Of a DNA stretch of 64,000 nt, positions 4,795 through 58,436 are shown piece by piece. Source of the stretch: Obelidium mucronatum (lineage: Eukaryota > Chytridiomycota > Chytridiomycetes > Chytridiales > Chytriomycetaceae); assembly GCA_025765595.1 (NCBI GenBank), contig JAIVFH010000036.1, forward strand, positions 124,001-188,000, read 5' to 3'. The notes under the pieces are model-generated. The model was not told the DNA's origin and ran no database searches. It was given only the letters and a program-made list of their open reading frames with translations. The position numbers were made by a program, and so were the translations under genes. The first letter of the stretch is position 1. Each line of letters begins with the position of its first letter.

Positions 4795-5756
4795 ATGATG
4801 TCGAATGACAATTCAAACGAAGATAGCCCCACACACCCAATTGTATTCTACAATTATGGAAAAGGCGATTATATTCCACGACCTGGATCCCTTCTTGCAG
4901 TCGCGCCAATTGTGAAGGAGTTGAGACACACTTTCAAGCCCACAAACCATTCCACTCACGTTCCACCCAACCCTTTCTCTTTTTATTTTTTTTTTGTTGC
5001 AGACGCATCATCCACATCAACAAATCGGCAGGACGCATCCACCGTGAACCAAGCGACGCGAAAATCCACTACAAAATCCACCACCTCAGCCACACACTCA
5101 CCAACGCGCATTTCGCGTTTGAATACGGAAAGAATCCGCCACTCGTAGATGCACTCAACAACCCCATGCATTTCTTCATGACTGGCCGTGTGGCAACGAG
5201 CTCATTACACACTGGACATGTCATGGACTATGGAAAACATCCCGTATTGGCAGAACTGAATATTAAAACTTATCAAGTGAATGCATTCCACGCCTTGTTG
5301 CGCGGTTTGGCGGAGAAAGTTGGTGGAGCTGGAAACGGTCAACACCACGTGAGTGTGTTGGTGGAAGATGGGGCGATTCACTTTAGCACGTTTTACAACA
5401 TTGAAAGAGATAAGCAGAGTTGAGTTTTCCTTTTATTTTTACTTTATTTTTTTTTTTGGTTATCGTTGCTGCGTTATTCAAATATTTTTTTTTACTTGAT
5501 AGTTCCAATCCACAACGCGTTGTGGGAAAGCGGCGACTTTGATTTTTACACGTTCGAAAAGGAGCCAAAGCTCATGAACGAACTTCATCCAGGATCCTCA
5601 GTGATTGTTGGATTCACAGTTCGCTTGTTTGACGCCAAGGAGCACAAGAATTGCGTGGGATTCACGCCCGAGTTTGTGTGTTTGTTGTGTGAAGACTTTG
5701 ACGCCGAAGCGGAAGCAGAAGAAGATGAAGAGAGATGCAGTGAGCCAGTTTATTGA
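4795..5756 (+). CDS. conserved-looking protein of unknown function
   Basis: Exons 4795-4919, 5003-5418 and 5503-5756 give 264 residues; both introns use a GTTGAG donor and a T-rich acceptor. I do not recognise a family. The protein is soluble-looking, with no signal peptide or membrane helix, His-rich in the middle (IHYKIHHLSH), a central Gly-rich turn (EKVGGAGNGQHH) and an acidic tail (about residues 243-258). A second in-frame Met follows immediately (4798). The gene sits head-to-tail between the GS-like gene and Ump1 with gaps of 115 and 66 bp. Confidence 0.65.
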
Positions 5757-15300: not shown

Positions 15301-18203
15301 AAGCGGCGACTGGAAACTTCCTTGTCGCTAACTGTGAGTAAGTTCAGAGCGACTGTGCGTTCCTTGTATGACCGGATTGCCTGTGCCATTGGTAGTCGGA
15401 CTCGAAGTCCAAAGTCGATTTTACCAATGATGGTTCTTTCGTCGTGTGTACTAATGAGGTCGGCGTAATAACGGAGTCGGTCGGTTCGGTCTGGATCTGT
15501 CAGCTCTTTCATGACCATTGAGCAAGTTGCAACATTGTGGAAGTCCAGACCATTAGACACACTAAAATACATGACGGTGCTTTTCGACTGAAGATATTGA
15601 AGGAAAAAGTCGTCTGTGTACACCTTGTACTTGGATGTGAAGTTGAATACTGGCTTTTGACCCAACCCCATCGGTGAGACTTGTGTCTCAAACTCAAAGA
15701 AGTCATAGTGAATAAATGTAGTGAGTTTTGCTGAGTCTTCCATATCGATTCCAAGCTTTCGAATGTAGTATAAACCGTCATCACTGATGAGAGCAGATTC
15801 AATATGGATTTCAATCATGTTTTGACCTAGAAGCTGGTTAGCATCTAAATACCAAGACAAAAGCCAAAATCACCAGTCGCCAGCTCCACAACATCATCGT
15901 CATCATCATCTTTTGGTCTTTCGATTTCGCCAGGTATTTTGGCTGTTCCATAGACAATGCTCTTCAGCTGCCCTTCCAAATGAGCAATTTTGTTTGCACG
16001 GAGGTCAAGCAGCCGGGAATCTTCCTCCAGACGAAGTTCTTTTGATTGACTTTTAACACGCTTCCTCAAACCGTATATATAATTTACCATATCCATTCTT
16101 CAAGGCCTCCATTTTTCTGTTGAGCTCCTCGCATTCCAGCTTGTAATCCTTGTTGATGTGCTCCTGTAAATACAGCAATTTTCGTATTTTCTCAAGCTCA
16201 TGAATGCAATCCGCATATTGAACTCTCAGCTCTTGCAATAGTTCTTTATCCTGTGGTATTTTTCAATATCGTGGACGAGACACTAAAATTTAACATACAG
16301 CATACAGCTCTTCTGCCTCCATCAAAAAATCGAGCGAGATTCCTCTTTCTCTTCTCAGCCTCACAATAGAAAGGGCTTCTTCAATTTCCGAAATATCAAT
16401 TTCACCATCCTTGCAGAAGAAATTCATTTTTTCTCGCAGTTCGTCGAGCTCCTGTTGGATTTCAAACATGTGACGATCCGCATCATGTTTCTCATCTCGA
16501 ATCTCACGTAAATGTTCTGAAGTAAAGGTATTTTAACGAAAAATTCAAAAGTCTTAGACCAAACCTTTCAAAGTCTCATTTTCCTCATGGATTGCTCTCT
16601 TCTCGTCCAAATGATACGCGAGATCTTTAATATGCTTTCGTAAATTTTCTCTAAGCTCTTCAATTTCGTTCTGATATTCTTCTTCTCGGTCACGATTGAA
16701 TTGAGCATCAAGCAAGTTGGCCTGCTCTTGCTCGAGCAGTCTCTTTTCTTCTCGAAGGTCATGAATCAATTCCAATAGCTGAAAATATAACAGGTTATTC
16801 TGTGGGTTTTGGGTAAAATCTGCACAAAACCTCTTCGTTTTCATGTCTGTCCGAACTAATTTTCTTCAATTCGTGTTCCATGTCAACACAACGCCGTCTC
16901 TCTTCTTTTAAATCTTCATTTAACTCATCAGAAACCCTCAACGCTTCTTGATGGGCTTCTAGCATAGCTCTGAACCTTTCGTCAAGAGTGTCAAACTTTC
17001 CGGCTATTTCACGTTCTCGCTTTCTAGATTCCGTGAGTTCAAGTTGAAGGGCTGCTCGTTCAATGTCATGCTGATGCTGATCTCTGCATCGAAAAGAAGT
17101 CAGATTCTTTTTATCCTTGAACCCATGTTCGACTTAACTTGTCCATTGCTTCACTTGTTCTTGAAGCGTCCTGTCTCAGTTTTTCCAGCTCCGCGTCCGC
17201 TTCGCTTAATTTTAACCGGAGCATTCCATTCATCTCCTCTCTGACTTCTGGTTAGATATCTATCTTATAAAAAATGAAAGTTCAAGTACATACAATTTCT
17301 CCAGTTCTTCTTGTGAATGATGGTTGACAGGTTCTGGCGAAGGATTATTTGAAGGTTTTGCGGATGCCATGCTGGAAATAAAAGTTTCAGGTGCAAAACA
17401 AGAAGAATCGCCAACCGTACCCTCCGGGCTTGGACTTAAGAACCAGTCCTGGCTGGAGTCTTTTCTTTTGAGATGCCTGCCGTTATAGGATAGGATTTGT
17501 TATTTTGCTGCATACGTCACAACTAGTTGACGCACCCCTTGAATCCTCGGAGGAATATGGTCATATGGCGTTCGTTTGCGCGTTTCTGCTTCATGAAGAG
17601 TTCGAAAGTATTGCATCTGAAACCAATTTGGCATTAATTTGGTGAGGTCTTGGGTTCTTTCTTTACCTTATTCCGTGTCACGGTATTCTCCTTAGTGACT
17701 TCTTTGAGCTGCAGTCTCAAATCTTCAATTAAGTCATAGGCTTCTTCAATATTTTTGAATTCCCCTTTTATGTGGCCGCAAAATATATGTCAGTAGCAAT
17801 ATATAGGAATAAACACAGACCAACCTTTAATTGGTTTCGCTTTTCCGACTTTGCTATGTTCAGGACCATCGCCTGCCATTACTTCTTTGTTTCGAATGAG
17901 GTCTTCTGATAATCGTTGTACTTTTGTTGTGAGTCTTAACAGCAGAGTAAGAATCCCAAACAAAGCAAACTTCATTGAAACAAAAGAGATCAATACTTTT
18001 TTGCCCGATCGTCCTGCACATTAAGCTTCTTTTTTAGGGCCAAGTTCTCTGCCTTCAATGCATACAACTCGTCCTCAGCATGTTTGTCTGATGAGGAACC
18101 TTTCAGTAACGACGCGTTCCTGGGGATCTATCACCCGGCACGTACCTAATGCGCGTCCGCTCAAGCCGCCCATCGCAGCCGAGTGCGATCTAGCCATAGT
18201 CAT
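12301..18203 (-). CDS. RPGRIP1L: RPGRIP1L-type ciliary transition-zone protein
   Basis: A long gene with well over ten short introns (about 48-110 nt) and roughly 1,600 residues. From the ATG at 18203: an N-terminal stretch with the RPGRIP1-like block YDHIPPRIQ, then a coiled coil covering most of 17370-15900. Next come two C2 domains around 15860-14900; the first contains FTSKYKVYTDDFFLQYL and RLPMAQAIRSYKERT, both close to vertebrate RPGRIP1L. A long Ser/Lys/His-rich insert follows (about 14850-12900). The C-terminal C2-like domain (ILFTVVSEPTED, ECEDIAYAKLDL) ends at TAA 12303-12301. RPGRIP1L anchors the ciliary gate together with NPHP and MKS proteins, so the organism should build a flagellum. 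Frame is kept across every junction I checked, including the three in the insert. Confidence 0.9.
13900..14170 (-). repeat. SHKSLKED tandem repeat within the RPGRIP1L insert
   Basis: At least four imperfect protein repeats of about 19 residues (57 nt), each with a core KSSHKSLKED followed by xEEKHSAS. The copies are nearly identical, indicating recent expansion. More degenerate SHKSLKE-like units lie further towards the N-terminus of the protein (about 14170-14340). Confidence 0.9.
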
Positions 18204-23603: not shown

Positions 23604-24920
23604 TTACATCTCTTCTATCCCATTGTGATCGTCAACATCGCCATCATCATCATCATCATCATCATCGCCATCTTCGATTTTAATTTCATTGTCCCTGCTA
23701 TCATCACTGTCACCACCACCACCAATGCCATCACCGCCACCATCATCACCTCCTCCGTCCCATAAATCAGCCGACAAATTGTCCTCTTCCTCCTCAAGAC
23801 TCTTGATGAGTTCAGCAGCAGCCTTTTCACGGCCCTTTTCCAGCGCCTTGTTCAAGTTGGCAAAGAATACGGATGCATGCAGCCTGAAGGGCGCTCCTGG
23901 TGGTTGTCGTTTCAAGCCCGGATTTGCGCCTTCGTCAAAACCCCACACGAAGCGCGGCACCAGCACAAACGGCATCTCCGCCAGATCGCGCACGCCCGGG
24001 GCCGGCACGACGGCGTCGGTCTTTGTGATGTACGTGACGGCGTACAGCGGCACGCACTGGGCCGAGTTGTACACGACGTACTCCGGGTACCCGGCGGCGG
24101 CGGCCCACGCGACCGAGTCGAAGCAGCGGTCGCCGCACGTGCGGCCTGGCAGCGCCTTGCGCGGCTCTCTGGCGCGGCCCGGCGTCGGGCGGCTGAACAC
24201 GCAGTCGCCGAGCAGCACGAGACACACGAAGAGCGTCGCCTTGCCGCGCACGTACGCGAGCGCCTTGCGCGGGTCGTCGGCAAAGTAAAGCCCGGCGCCG
24301 TGCAGCCCTGTGGCGCTGGCGAGCCGCGCGTCGAGGCCGTCGGCCAGCACGGATTCGGCCGCGCCGCGGCTGCCGTGGAAGAGCAGCGCGCAGTTGTCCG
24401 CAAAGTCACAGCCGGCGCTGCACGGCGCGCGCTGGTGCTTTGCGTCGAACGCCGCGTGCGCCGCGAGCATGAGCGCGGCTTGGCGTGCGGCCAGTCCGCA
24501 CTCGCCCAGTGTTTGCGCGCTGCGCGTTTTGAGCACGCGCAGCTGCCGCCGCCGCGCCTCGAACTGCGCCAGCAGCCCCGCATTTGTCACGCGCTCGATC
24601 GTGAAGAACTGCAGCTGTCCCAGGATCGGCGCGAGCAGCTCCGCGACAAGAAACTCAAACTCCGCGGACTCAGGCGCCACGAGCTCGCGCAGGAACGGCT
24701 CCGGGTACGCGAGCGCGCGGTCCAGCGACGCCAAGTGGTCCGGGTGCAACGCAAACGTGCTTGCTGCTGGCGGCAAGTCCGCCGGCGGCTGCGCGTAGAT
24801 GGGCGGCGGCGAAGTTGGCCGTGGTGGCATTCGTGGCTGTGCGGCAGCTTGTTGTCGGAGCCGTTGCTGGTGCTGTTGCTGGAGCTGGGCAAGAATAGCT
24901 GCCTGACCTGCTTGAAGCAT
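23604..24920 (-). CDS. PARP-type ADP-ribosyltransferase with acidic tail
   Basis: Single exon, 438 residues. Gln/Pro-rich N-terminus (1-60), then a PARP catalytic fold with the complete H-Y-E triad: His182 in NCALLFHGSR, Tyr212 in GAGLYFADDPRKALAY, Glu280 in EYVVYNSAQCVPLYAV. The Glu suggests capacity for glutamate-linked or polymer ADP-ribosylation rather than the H-Y-I/L pattern of typical mono-ARTs, although Glu alone does not prove it. There is no WGR, zinc finger, BRCT or PARP regulatory domain. The last 90 residues are Gly/Asp-rich and very acidic. About residues 55-300 are extremely GC-rich in DNA. It is a paralogue of the PARP part of the gene at 56016-58436. Confidence 0.87.
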   Translation of the reverse strand: MLQAGQAAILAQLQQQHQQRLRQQAAAQPRMPPRPTSPPPIYAQPPADLPPAASTFALHPDHLASLDRALAYPEPFLRELVAPESAEFEFLVAELLAPILGQLQFFTIERVTNAGLLAQFEARRRQLRVLKTRSAQTLGECGLAARQAALMLAAHAAFDAKHQRAPCSAGCDFADNCALLFHGSRGAAESVLADGLDARLASATGLHGAGLYFADDPRKALAYVRGKATLFVCLVLLGDCVFSRPTPGRAREPRKALPGRTCGDRCFDSVAWAAAAGYPEYVVYNSAQCVPLYAVTYITKTDAVVPAPGVRDLAEMPFVLVPRFVWGFDEGANPGLKRQPPGAPFRLHASVFFANLNKALEKGREKAAAELIKSLEEEEDNLSADLWDGGGDDGGGDGIGGGGDSDDSRDNEIKIEDGDDDDDDDDGDVDDHNGIEEM

Positions 24921-25036
24921 TGAATTTTTCAGGTTTTTTTTTTAAATTTTTTTTATGAATCGGCGCATACCGACCGCCTCCCTGAACTTCAAAGTCATGC
25001 ACAGCAACCACCCCATGCGTCCGAAACACACCTTCT
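24921..25036. other. short spacer upstream of the PARP gene
   Basis: Contains T-runs near 24936-24953. The minus strand keeps a short open, protein-like stretch here (about 24960-25030) that could be a 3' exon of the gene at 25037-25631, but no convincing splice pair was found. Confidence 0.3.
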
Positions 25037-25631
25037 TTAACTCAAAGAACTCTCCCCACAAGCGCACGCAACGCCCTCAACGTCATTGTCAAAGGAAACC
25101 TTCTTCGCTACTCTCTTCTTGACATCACCCGCCGCCAAATCAAACAAAACGCATGCACCACAAGCCGGTTCTTTAACGCGTTGCTTCGTGACACAGGCAG
25201 TTGCCACCTCCGACTCCCTGGGGATCCCGCAAAGTCGGGGATGAAACTCATACACAAGTTTTTTTAGAATCACCGTCACCATGTGCAGACACTGAAACGG
25301 ATGAATGGGAGCGGACGAGTTGATGCTCCCACCACCACTCAGCAGACGTAGTACGTACGCAACCGCCCCATACTCCCATTGCGCAACCTTTTCCCCAAAA
25401 TAATACAACTCGGCATCGGACCAGGTTCCCGTTTGGGGAAAGGACTTTTCCCCGTTGATTCAGGTTGCTTTCGCGAGTCCTGCTGTTGATTTTCATCGAT
25501 TCGAGAGATGTGCGATTGACGCCGTGGTTACTTGTTGTTATTGCGCGGCTGCTGTTGTTGGATTTGAGGGACAGTGGGGTGTCGCTGCGCGATGAGGCGG
25601 CGGCGGTGGAGGTTGGTGAAGCAGCAGACAT
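25037..25631 (-). CDS. putative gene of unknown function, splice model unresolved
   Basis: Two open segments in different frames suggest a two-exon gene. The 5' one starts at ATG 25631 (Ser/Thr-rich, MSAASPTSTAAASSRS). The 3' one ends at 25037 and contains TWSDAELYYFGEKVAQWEYG, PIHPFQCLHMVTVILKKLVY and a Cys-containing end (ACGACVLFDL, CACGESS). The join would fall between about 25430 and 25520, but candidate sites (GTCAAT donor, GGGGAAAAG acceptor) are weak. The protein matches nothing I recognise. It could instead be one exon of a longer gene. Confidence 0.4.
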
Positions 25632-26147
25632 AGGTTATCCCTCTCGCGAATATCAAACAACAGTGGGGAACGCGTTGAACGCGTGTATTGAATGGGTGTG
25701 AATCGATTCTGTTGCTTGTCAAGGTGAGGGTTGTTGGGTTTGGGAAGGTTGTAGTATCAGTAGTTCTTTTTTAAATAAAGTTGTTGTTGTTGAAGGTATT
25801 ATCTGTCTAGTCTATCGAACATAACCCAAAATCGTAATCCCTTAAAGCGTGCTCAGCTTTTTTCTCATCTGCATATAAAATCTGAATTCACATCTTCATT
25901 CGGTCTTCAAGTTTTCAGACCCGGAACTCAGGACATTTTGATTCAGTTTAAGCTCTTCAGAATTATCGGCCGCATTGCGTTCTCGTGCGCCAGCAATACT
26001 TTTGGGGAATCAGCGCGTATAGAGGATACCGAATTTGTCATAGAGACTTTGAATAGGCAATCTGAAGCGTTGGTCGCTGTCTGCTTTACATGTTGTTATT
26101 TTTTTTTCGGGATCAACACAAGAACTTTTAGCTGAACTTTTTGAAAC
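25632..26147. other. intergenic region, no supported gene
   Basis: 516 bp between a divergent pair of starts. It contains a short open frame (25938-26135) without recognisable features and a TTG/GTT-rich stretch near 25780. No RNA gene or repeat seen. Confidence 0.5.
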
Positions 26148-56015: not shown

Positions 56016-58436
56016 TCAACAAACTCCACGATCCTTCAACTCATCTTCCACCCTCCACAAATAAGTCTCGTCTGGATACCCATACGCCAACACTCCCCCC
56101 GAAACACTCGTCTTGTGATGAATATTCCAAACAAGCGTATTCTCCCGCCCCGTAGTCGCGCTTTTCCCTACCCGAAAGCAAAGCCTCCGATCCCACGCCG
56201 TCTTCATCAACCCCACCACTTTCCGTCCTTCAACAGTATCGGGAAAGTACGTGGTTCGATTCAAATGGTGTTCCGGCCCACGCACATCATACGATACAAT
56301 CAAGGCCCCCGCTGTTGTTGGGAATCCCGGGAGTTTGAGATTGGGGCTCGGGGTGATTGTCATTGTGCCGTTGGGACAAGTTCCAATCTCGGTGCCGTCA
56401 ACGACATTGCAGTAAGGACATTTGATCCACGAATGAGAGACGCCCGACATTGTGGTTCCAGTGTGAGATAGAGTTTTGTGGCATGTTGGACAGAGCTTGT
56501 GGGTGCATTGGGTTAGAGTAATCATGTTTTCAACAGTCTCGGTGCAAATTTCACAGTTGGTTGGTTCTTCTTGTTTGTTGAGGTCATTGTCTTTGGTTGG
56601 GATTTGAGGAACTGGCATATTTTCGACTGGGGAAAGAATTTCATTGGATGTTGTGTGTGTGGTTGTAATATCAGGGAGCAGGCATGGACTTGAAGTAAGA
56701 TCAATAGCGTCAGTGGTATCGAGAATTGAATCAATTGCTTCCGCTGGAATGATTGGGGCTTTTCTTTTGGTGGTTGGGATATCTGTTTTGCACGTGAAAG
56801 CAACGGTCAATAAATAAGATTATGCATACAACAAATAAAACCATTTCCAACCATCTTCATCGTCAATAACTACAGTGGGCATCTTACGCTTTCGAGAACG
56901 AGGAGAATATGTATCAGAAACAACAAGTACAGGATCATCTAAAAGACTGGTCAGAGACGTGGGCTTTCGGTTTGTAACTCTCTTGGCGGCATCAACATCA
57001 TCATCATCATCGCTGTCCAATATCACAAAGGCTCCGCTTCCAATGGATTGCCTCAAATTAACAGACTTGGATACAGCTACTACAGAATTAGGTTTCGGGC
57101 GGATGGCTTGGACAGGCTTTTCAGATCCGCACCGAATACAATCCAAGAAGTCATCGTCGTTCAATGAAGGGCAATATGTGCATTTCCACTGCGGTCCAGT
57201 TGGGGTTTGCGGTTTTGGGGGCGAATTCAGCACTTCATCCAAAATGACAGCAGTCTTTGATCGCGGTTTAGCAACAGGGTCGGGGAGAATATCTGCAGAC
57301 ATGGCGTTGAATATGTGCGCCGCGTATAATTTCCACGTAGAGATGCTTGGAATTGGTGGTGAACACCGCCAAGCAAATGGGGGTATTGGACATGGTCCCG
57401 GAGTATAAGCAGCTGGTGTATAAGTCACGGCATAAACAGGAACGCATTGATGAGAGTTATAAATAACGTATTCGTTTGCACCGGCGGGACCGGCTGGCTG
57501 AGCCACGATTGAATCAAAGAACAGATCATTCTTGTTTCGCTTTTGCGCGTCCACTTTGAGAGGCTCACGAACGGCCGAGCGAATGTGGCCGCCGTTATCG
57601 ACAAACAGACAATCGCCAAGAAGGACTTGGAAGATGAAGATGGTCGCGTTTGCATCATAGCCCATGGACTTCCTCGGGTCATCGGCAAAGTAGATTCCGC
57701 GACCCAGCAGGCCGCCGTTGCCCATGCGGCAGTCGAGTCCCTGCGCAAGCACGTCGGCCACAGGCGCGCGCGAGCAGTGGAACAGCAGCGCGCAGTTGTC
57801 CGCGTACTCGGGGAAGTCCGGCGGGGCGCCGGCGCGGGCGTGGTCGTCGAAGTTCGCGTCGGCCTGCGCGCGCAGCGCCACGGCGGCGTTGTCGAGGCCC
57901 AGGCGCCGCAGCGCCTTGGCGGAGCGCGTCTTCAGCCGCAGCAGCTCGGCGCGCCGCGCGCTGAACTGCGCCGCCAGCGCCGGGTTCGTCACGCGCTCGA
58001 CGCCCGCCGCCCGCACGCCGAACCCGCCGAGCAGCGCTTCGACCGCTGCGAGCTCGGCGCCACCCGCCGCCGTGCGCATGAACGGCGCCTGCGACGCCTG
58101 CACGTGCGCCGCCGCCGTCGCGCGCTCGTGGTTCGGCGGGAACAGCGGCCCGCGTGGCGCGTCCACTTCTAGCGCGCTGGGCGGCCGCGCGCCGGCGAAG
58201 GCGGGCGCGGGCGGCGGCGGTGGCGCGGGCGGTGGCGGCGCGTGTCCGAGTCCAAACAACGGGTTGAATGCCGCGCCAAACGCGTTCAGCAGCTGTGCGT
58301 TTCCGCCCGGAGGCATCATGTTCAACTGCATCGCTTGCGTCAACATGGTCGAATATGTCGCGGCCGTCGAAGGAGCAGCTGGCTGCCTGGGTCGGCGGGG
58401 GCGGGGGCCGTGGGGCGCCTTCTTTGCCTTGGTCAT
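56016..58436 (-). CDS. PARP - RanBP2 zinc finger - RING - Deltex C-terminal (DTC) fusion
   Basis: Exons 58436-56852 and 56782-56016, joined by a 69-nt intron (GTTGGA donor, TATTGAC branch site, AACAG acceptor), give 783 residues in one frame. Pro/Ala-rich N-terminus. PARP catalytic domain (about 145-345) with triad His220 (ALLFHCSR), Tyr249 (GRGIYFADDPRK), Glu322 (NEYVIYNSHQC). RanBP2-type finger (WKCTYC...CIRC, Cys 419/422/433/436). C3HC4 RING (Cys605/608, Cys621-His623, Cys626/629, Cys650/653). DTC domain (about 659-783) with GTCPNGTMTI, LPGFPTTAGALIVSYDV, YFPDTVEGRKVVGLM, WNIHHKTSVSGG and GYPDETYL. In animals Deltex ligases bind NAD+/ADP-ribose through DTC and DTX3L partners PARP9; here both parts are one polypeptide. 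Confidence 0.88.

Follow-up and report, generated by a model that had tools for sequence, protein, structure and literature searches.

Sequence analysis of a 64,000-nucleotide window from the chytrid fungus Obelidium mucronatum (Chytridiales, Chytriomycetaceae), part of a 320,266-base contig in a 48.3-Mb assembly, identified a real and conserved fusion of a PARP with a Deltex-type ubiquitin ligase, whose product most likely both writes ADP-ribose and ubiquitylates it by itself. Pfam PARP (PF00644) matches the first of two open reading frames (ORFs), 56820-58436 (-), at 40.8 bits against a cut-off of 26.7, and Pfam DTC matches the C terminus of the second, 56016-56810 (-), at 113-117.5 bits against a cut-off of 25. 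The first-pass annotation had placed both domains in one gene and had set PARP and DTC profile searches as a refutation test; both regions matched above cut-off and the fusion recurs in other species. The domain order that it gave, PARP, finger, RING and DTC, is real and conserved in other species. The gene and its features lie in the window as follows:

58436..56016 (-): whole gene (ORFs and splice join)
56852..58436 (-): exon 1 with the 69-nt intron choice, comprising the Pro-rich N terminus, PARP catalytic domain, RanBP2-like finger and part of the linker (ORF, Pfam PARP)
57417..58001 (-): ADP-ribosyltransferase (PARP) domain, aa 146-340, with H220, Y249 and E322 (Pfam over aa 212-339; triad by alignment)
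57129..57188 (-): RanBP2/NZF-type zinc finger signature, aa 417-436 (pattern match)
57009..57029 (-): SUMO-interaction-like motif FVILDSD, aa 470-476 (pattern count with shuffles)
56910..56930 (-): SUMO-interaction-like motif VLVVSDT, aa 503-509 (pattern count with shuffles)
56783..56851 (-): intron, 69-nt version, GTTGGA...ACAG, in frame, the form found in P0001
56783-56887 (-): intron, 105-nt version, GTAAGA...ACAG, in frame; acceptor 56783 common to both versions
56016..56782 (-): exon 2, comprising linker, RING, DTC and stop (ORF, Pfam)
56691..56705 (-): SUMO-interaction-like motif IDLTS, aa 555-559 (pattern count with shuffles)
56409..56555 (-): C3HC4 RING, aa 605-653 (eight ligands by eye; zf-C3HC4 just under cut-off)
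56022..56384 (-): Deltex C-terminal domain, aa 662-782, with H750, Y762 and E776 (Pfam; residues by alignment)
23604..24920 (-): paralogue of the PARP half, diverged, with 438 aa, the H-Y-E triad and an acidic C-terminal tail (ORF, alignment, tree)

The first ORF encodes 538 aa, and an in-frame stop lies between the PARP and DTC halves, so that splicing is required for one chain. A script limited to introns of 45-160 nt whose donor falls close to where the first ORF stops found 16 possible GT-AG joins, among which a simple donor score placed GTAAGA at 56887 best, ahead of GTTGGA at 56851. With either the 69-nt or the 105-nt intron the frame stays open through the end of the DTC, the two products differing by 12 linker residues. 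The single clean 69-nt intron of the first-pass annotation is in frame and is the form present in the public model P0001 (BDR26DRAFT_862293, Obelidium mucronatum; 100% match over 93% of the searched part), but the better-scoring 105-nt donor competes with it. P0001 begins at MGNGG, within the PARP domain, and the catalytic His is missing from this public model; it looks truncated, because the upstream ORF is open and by eye resembles Siphonaria P0010 and Podochytrium P0019. Retention of the intron would yield a PARP without the E3 part.

PARP-Deltex fusions are found in chytrids and in hexapods. The first two protein searches scored about 8000 candidates each, the first returning 29 proteins at E <= 1e-3. 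Chytrid proteins with both PARP and DTC come from Obelidium, Rhizoclosmatium, Physocladia (2), Entophlyctis and Chytriomyces (2), and hexapod ones from Bradysia coprophila (2), B. odoriphaga, Pseudolycoriella hygida and the springtail Folsomia candida; these five hexapod proteins sit on contigs of 3.6 to 64 Mb, which makes contamination unlikely. Further PARP+DTC proteins, from the sources jgi, lgn and ena, are probably environmental, and the domain order is the same in chytrids, sciarid gnats, the springtail and these probably environmental proteins. An early-fungal setting had been suggested for the fusion; the hexapod members rule out its confinement to early fungi. Siphonaria and Podochytrium models contain the PARP half. 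In the public model of Podochytrium sp. JEL0797 (P0021) a flavin monooxygenase (FMO) is joined to the family RING-DTC, probably through merging of gene models and possibly as a split gene or a real further fusion. The second Physocladia obscura copy (P0022) is a short fused copy and a candidate natural double pseudo-enzyme.

A profile search with alignment A1 returned five proteins, one of them new: Bradysia odoriphaga P0030, a PARP of the family without a DTC in its model. The third protein search gave 9 matches among 192 candidates and missed the known members P0003, P0011 and P0012, hence the distribution given here is a minimum. No relative was present among the 14 stretches matched when prokaryote contigs were scanned with the second ORF, or among the 11 matched in a viral scan with P0028. 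DNA motif scans matched one and zero viral and 35 prokaryotic stretches; among the 36 loci checked, the lone DTC match (L037, E 0.009) is taken as chance. The first-pass annotation knew of no described protein with this domain order. No PARP-DTC chain appears by title or abstract start among the literature matches listed, but the sequences themselves are already public with both Pfam domains annotated, several under the name 'E3 ubiquitin-protein ligase dtx3l'.

The catalytic residues of the PARP half are conserved across the family. In a sequence search the closest solved relative of this half is PARP12 (E 3e-5), followed by PARP3 and the tankyrases; the start of the domain at aa 146 was judged by eye from conserved relatives. 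Alignment confirms the complete H-Y-E triad that had been annotated (H220, Y249 and E322), and across 24 family PARP rows, counted with the paralogue and four DTC-less models and without the C16, C6 and P0028 PARPs, the His is present in 23/24 (the remaining row is truncated), the Tyr in 24/24 and the Glu in 23/24. Gly commonly sits after the catalytic His in PARPs; this residue is Cys in 20/24 family rows, the Obelidium protein among them, and Gly in the paralogue.

The second half has the organization of a Deltex ligase. The RING directly precedes the DTC, and its annotation as C3HC4 agrees with eight ligands identified by eye, but the zf-C3HC4 profile scores 20.2, just short of its cut-off of 21; the RINGs of the relatives P0002, P0007, P0013 and P0017 exceed that cut-off. 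The DTC is the sole match to this domain found in the Obelidium genome, and the closest solved relatives of this half in a sequence search are DTX2 (E 4.7e-27), then DTX1 and DTX3L. H750, Y762 and E776 align with DTX3L H707, Y719 and E733, and H750/E776 align with DTX2 H582/E608. DTX2 His582/Glu608 are reported to be required for ubiquitylating ADP-ribose or NAD+ at the 3′-OH (PMC7615817), and the ubiquitylation of single-stranded nucleic acids by DTX3L to depend on H707, Y719 and E733 (PMC11460948). The catalytic His is retained in 24/25 DTC rows of the family, as is the catalytic Glu (24/25). The position of DTX2 H594 / DTX3L Y719 is Tyr in 14/25 rows (chytrids except P0022, Obelidium included, as well as Folsomia, Bradysia P0016 and others), His in 10/25 (the remaining gnat rows and several probably environmental rows) and Asn in 1/25, a difference that may mark a shift in the choice between ADP-ribose and nucleic acid. 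All substitutions at the five PARP/DTC catalytic positions are confined to one protein, Physocladia P0022, in which the PARP Glu is changed to Q, the DTC His to E and the DTC Glu to Q. Such a double loss is what coupling of the two activities would predict, although as a single case it falls short of proof.

Between the two enzymatic halves, the linkers appear to differ in kind, with SUMO-binding-like motifs in chytrids and UBA domains in most hexapod members. The annotated RanBP2 finger at aa 417-436 fits the signature W-x-C-x2-C-x3-N-x6-C-x2-C, but Pfam PF00641 gives no match in the Obelidium protein and reaches 14.7 bits, under the cut-off of 27, in Rhizoclosmatium P0002. A loose finger pattern is present in 7/10 chytrid rows and missing from P0004, P0021 and P0022; in the P0010 and P0019 fingers Val replaces the usual Asn. 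SUMO-interaction-like motifs were counted in the linkers of 19 rows against two-residue shuffles, using a pattern written after the sequences had been seen. The Obelidium linker has three such motifs where 0.60 are expected in shuffles (fraction 0.008, pattern chosen post hoc). Among other chytrids, Physocladia P0003 has three (0.007) and P0022 none, Rhizoclosmatium two (0.060) and the Chytriomyces proteins two and two (0.11, 0.09); among probably environmental rows, P0015 has three (0.006), P0017 three (in none of the shuffles) and the other six 0-1. The five hexapod linkers contain 0-1 each. The script's pattern missed P0004 and P0018, and P0010, P0019 and P0025 (one motif each) were counted without a shuffle control. 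Because the pattern is post hoc and the fractions are uncorrected for multiple tests, SUMO targeting is a lead only. PF24932 UBA matches occur in 4/5 hexapod members at up to 56 bits (P0007), with none listed for P0016, and Chytriomyces P0005 combines the finger with a weak UBA match (18.0 against 22.4).

Phylogenetic analysis places the E3 half of the family apart from the canonical Deltex ligases compared. In the RING-DTC tree the family forms one clade of 25 rows (99/96), separate from human DTX1, DTX2 and DTX3L and from P0029 and P0028; a PARP match is present in the same model in 19 of these 25 rows, the rest being partial or unfused models. With DTX1/DTX2 as root, the canonical rows closest to the family are DTX3L and P0029 (96/87), those two pairing with each other at only 83/36; the E3 half may thus share ancestry with DTX3L. 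The fusion had been read as evidence that the link seen in PARP9-DTX3L is ancient or arose again in early fungi. Descent of PARP9-DTX3L from such a fused ancestor is not supported by these sequences, nor do they show descent in the opposite direction: the 783-aa Obelidium protein has no macrodomain match at E up to 1 and its RING-DTC belongs to a clade of its own, in a comparison that covers the DTX3L side of the pair. The nearness of DTX3L leaves some room for such an ancestor. P0028 (705 aa, source ena) matches PARP, RING and DTC, all over Pfam cut-offs, and probably represents a second, separate PARP-RING-DTC fusion; its canonical-looking Deltex DTC lies outside the family clade, its PARP is very distant in the tree, and by eye Ile stands in place of the triad Glu, making it an H-Y-I type PARP.

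Within the family, a concatenated tree built without P0022, the paralogue and two other Obelidium PARPs groups the chytrids as one clade of nine rows (97/97) and six hexapod rows with probably environmental rows (90/88), with P0015 adjoining the chytrids (89/90) and P0017 basal (80/54). In a PARP-only tree without outgroups, P0015 and P0017 group with the hexapods (98/94), and in a tree with long PARP outgroups the hexapods appeared nested in the chytrids, unlike in the concatenated tree. The patchy distribution, with sciarids and a springtail the only ones among the species-named animals found, suggests gene transfer. A 2026 study of chimeras of transferred genes in arthropods reports the greatest predicted number in Folsomia (PMC13389597); deltex, ubiquitin and ADP-ribosylation go unmentioned in the main text of that paper. 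Tentatively, and with considerable doubt about the whole, one could imagine a single chain that makes ADP-ribose marks and then adds ubiquitin to them, guided by SUMO in chytrids and by ubiquitin (through UBA) in hexapods, that moved by gene transfer between soil arthropods and either fungi or another soil-living organism, and that was fused again independently in the unrelated P0028 lineage.

About 31 kb from the fusion gene, the paralogue ORF contains no RING or DTC. It nests among chytrid PARPs, which makes a duplicate that has lost the E3 half the most likely explanation. Its place inside the chytrid PARPs disfavours its being the unfused ancestor. The branch is long, and the AU test does not reject a tree in which the paralogue and the PARP of the Obelidium fusion are sisters (p 0.102). 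The 2-kb bin 24001-26000, which holds the paralogue, has a GC content of 0.58, the other 31 bins ranging from 0.39 to 0.54. Elsewhere in the genome, near the end of contig C6, two inverted PARP copies with identical scores lie about 11 kb apart at 4927-5337 (-) and 16436-16846 (+) (L008 and L009), in a frame that by eye also takes in an upstream thioredoxin-like stretch. As the models of P0030 and the Obelidium paralogue lack a DTC, the PARP may also act alone, and matches in the Obelidium genome to the Macro, PARG and ADP-ribosyl-hydrolase families suggest that the marks could be removed.

On balance we lean towards a gene product that is a single-chain ADP-ribose writer joined to a Deltex E3 that ubiquitylates ADP-ribose. 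The PARP domain with its H-Y-E triad would put ADP-ribose on its own chain or on a target close by, where the DTC further along that chain would bind it, and the RING would bring E2~ubiquitin. The DTC His and Glu would then activate the ADP-ribose 3′-OH, leading to the joining of ubiquitin and a hybrid ADPr-ubiquitin mark, while the linker may help to pick the target, in chytrids through a RanBP2-like finger and motifs that resemble SUMO-binding ones, in most hexapod members through UBA. In its favour we count the conservation of both sets of catalytic residues, their joint loss in P0022, the recurrence of the domain order, the roles of DTX2 His582/Glu608, the tankyrase precedent, the apparently separate P0028 fusion and the presence in the genome of families that could remove the marks. 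We count against this mechanism the Cys after the catalytic His, the weak RING score, SUMO-like motifs that exceed shuffles in some chytrid rows only, and the existence of DTC-less PARPs. The PARP may also mark a target whose ADP-ribose the DTC merely reads, with ubiquitin passed to lysines for degradation, a reading that we regard as conceivable but rather unlikely. Ahmed et al. 2020 reportedly found that DTC domains recruit ADP-ribosylated proteins for ubiquitination, which favours this route, and UBA domains and SUMO-like motifs fit a degradation ligase; the His/Glu pair for ubiquitylating ADP-ribose itself is nevertheless kept in all but one of the 25 DTC rows.

It is improbable that the two activities act instead on ubiquitin, attaching ADP-ribose to its C terminus or ubiquitylating NAD+ as a self-limiting ligase. 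PARP9-DTX3L is reported to yield ubiquitin ADP-ribosylated at Gly76, lowering chain formation (PMC8424196). Such a ligase would give no reason for an H-Y-E PARP to be conserved alongside it. Modification of ubiquitin Gly76 is today attributed solely to the Deltex portion, which further counts against this explanation. That the locus holds two adjacent genes, or a PARP with alternative ends of which the fused chain is a minor form or artefact and intron retention gives PARP alone, is very unlikely: the stop inside the intron, the ambiguous donor and an in-frame ATG shortly 5′ of the RING, which could begin a separate DTX gene, all speak for it, yet other annotated genomes and probably environmental proteins carry the fusion too, three of the latter (P0008, P0018 and P0023) seem by eye to be encoded in one unspliced frame each, and no stop interrupts the linker frame between acceptor and RING. 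We give scarcely any credence to a catalytically dead PARP half with a scaffold role, as reported for some animal PARPs; the Cys in place of Gly would suit it, but H-Y-E is kept except in the degenerate P0022, where the DTC residues are lost as well.

If the fused protein is indeed a writer and ubiquitylator of ADP-ribose, it bears on two questions now being addressed in animals with separate proteins: whether ubiquitylation of ADP-ribose by Deltex ligases belongs to a dedicated pathway, and which PARP supplies them. That a natural fusion keeps both catalytic sets in two kingdoms, and that its one decayed copy has changes in both, speaks for selection on the coupled reaction. A single chain also permits single-mutant tests of writing and of ubiquitylation, at H220, E322, H750 and E776.

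To our knowledge, the pairing of a PARP with a Deltex ligase is known only as separate proteins. The human PARP9-DTX3L heterodimer resembles the fused family in that a PARP works together with a Deltex RING-DTC in a single unit. In its DTC pocket, Obelidium has a Tyr (Y762) that corresponds to DTX3L Y719, and among the human DTCs in the tree that of DTX3L lies closest. The human pair is nonetheless encoded by two genes, whereas the Obelidium protein is one chain with a RING-DTC in its own clade, in a comparison of the E3 halves; PARP9 has macrodomains and lacks the triad. DTX1-DTX4 and DTX3L share the RING followed by a C-terminal DTC and the catalytic His/Glu, but contain no PARP. By eye, the fused family differs from the DTX family in having no PNPG-containing insert and one residue fewer before IHHKT, and from DTX1/2/3L in having mostly C-P for Q-P and a longer RING loop. 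Tankyrase carries accessory domains other than those of the fused family. PARP fusions with UBCc, UBA, RWD and UIM domains have been described (PMC4245714, PMC2964712), although Deltex is absent from the available text of PMC2964712 and DTC from that of PMC4245714. Among these, the fungal clade 6A PARP-UBCc proteins similarly fuse a fungal PARP to a ubiquitin-pathway domain, but the partner is an E2-like UBCc and the PARPs lack the last triad Glu (PMC2964712, PMC4245714). The closest known working example is tankyrase with DTX2 and DTX3, which ubiquitylate tankyrase's ADP-ribose in cells: as proposed for the fused family, the ADP-ribose made by a PARP receives ubiquitin from a Deltex E3, here from separate proteins acting in trans (PMC12407064).
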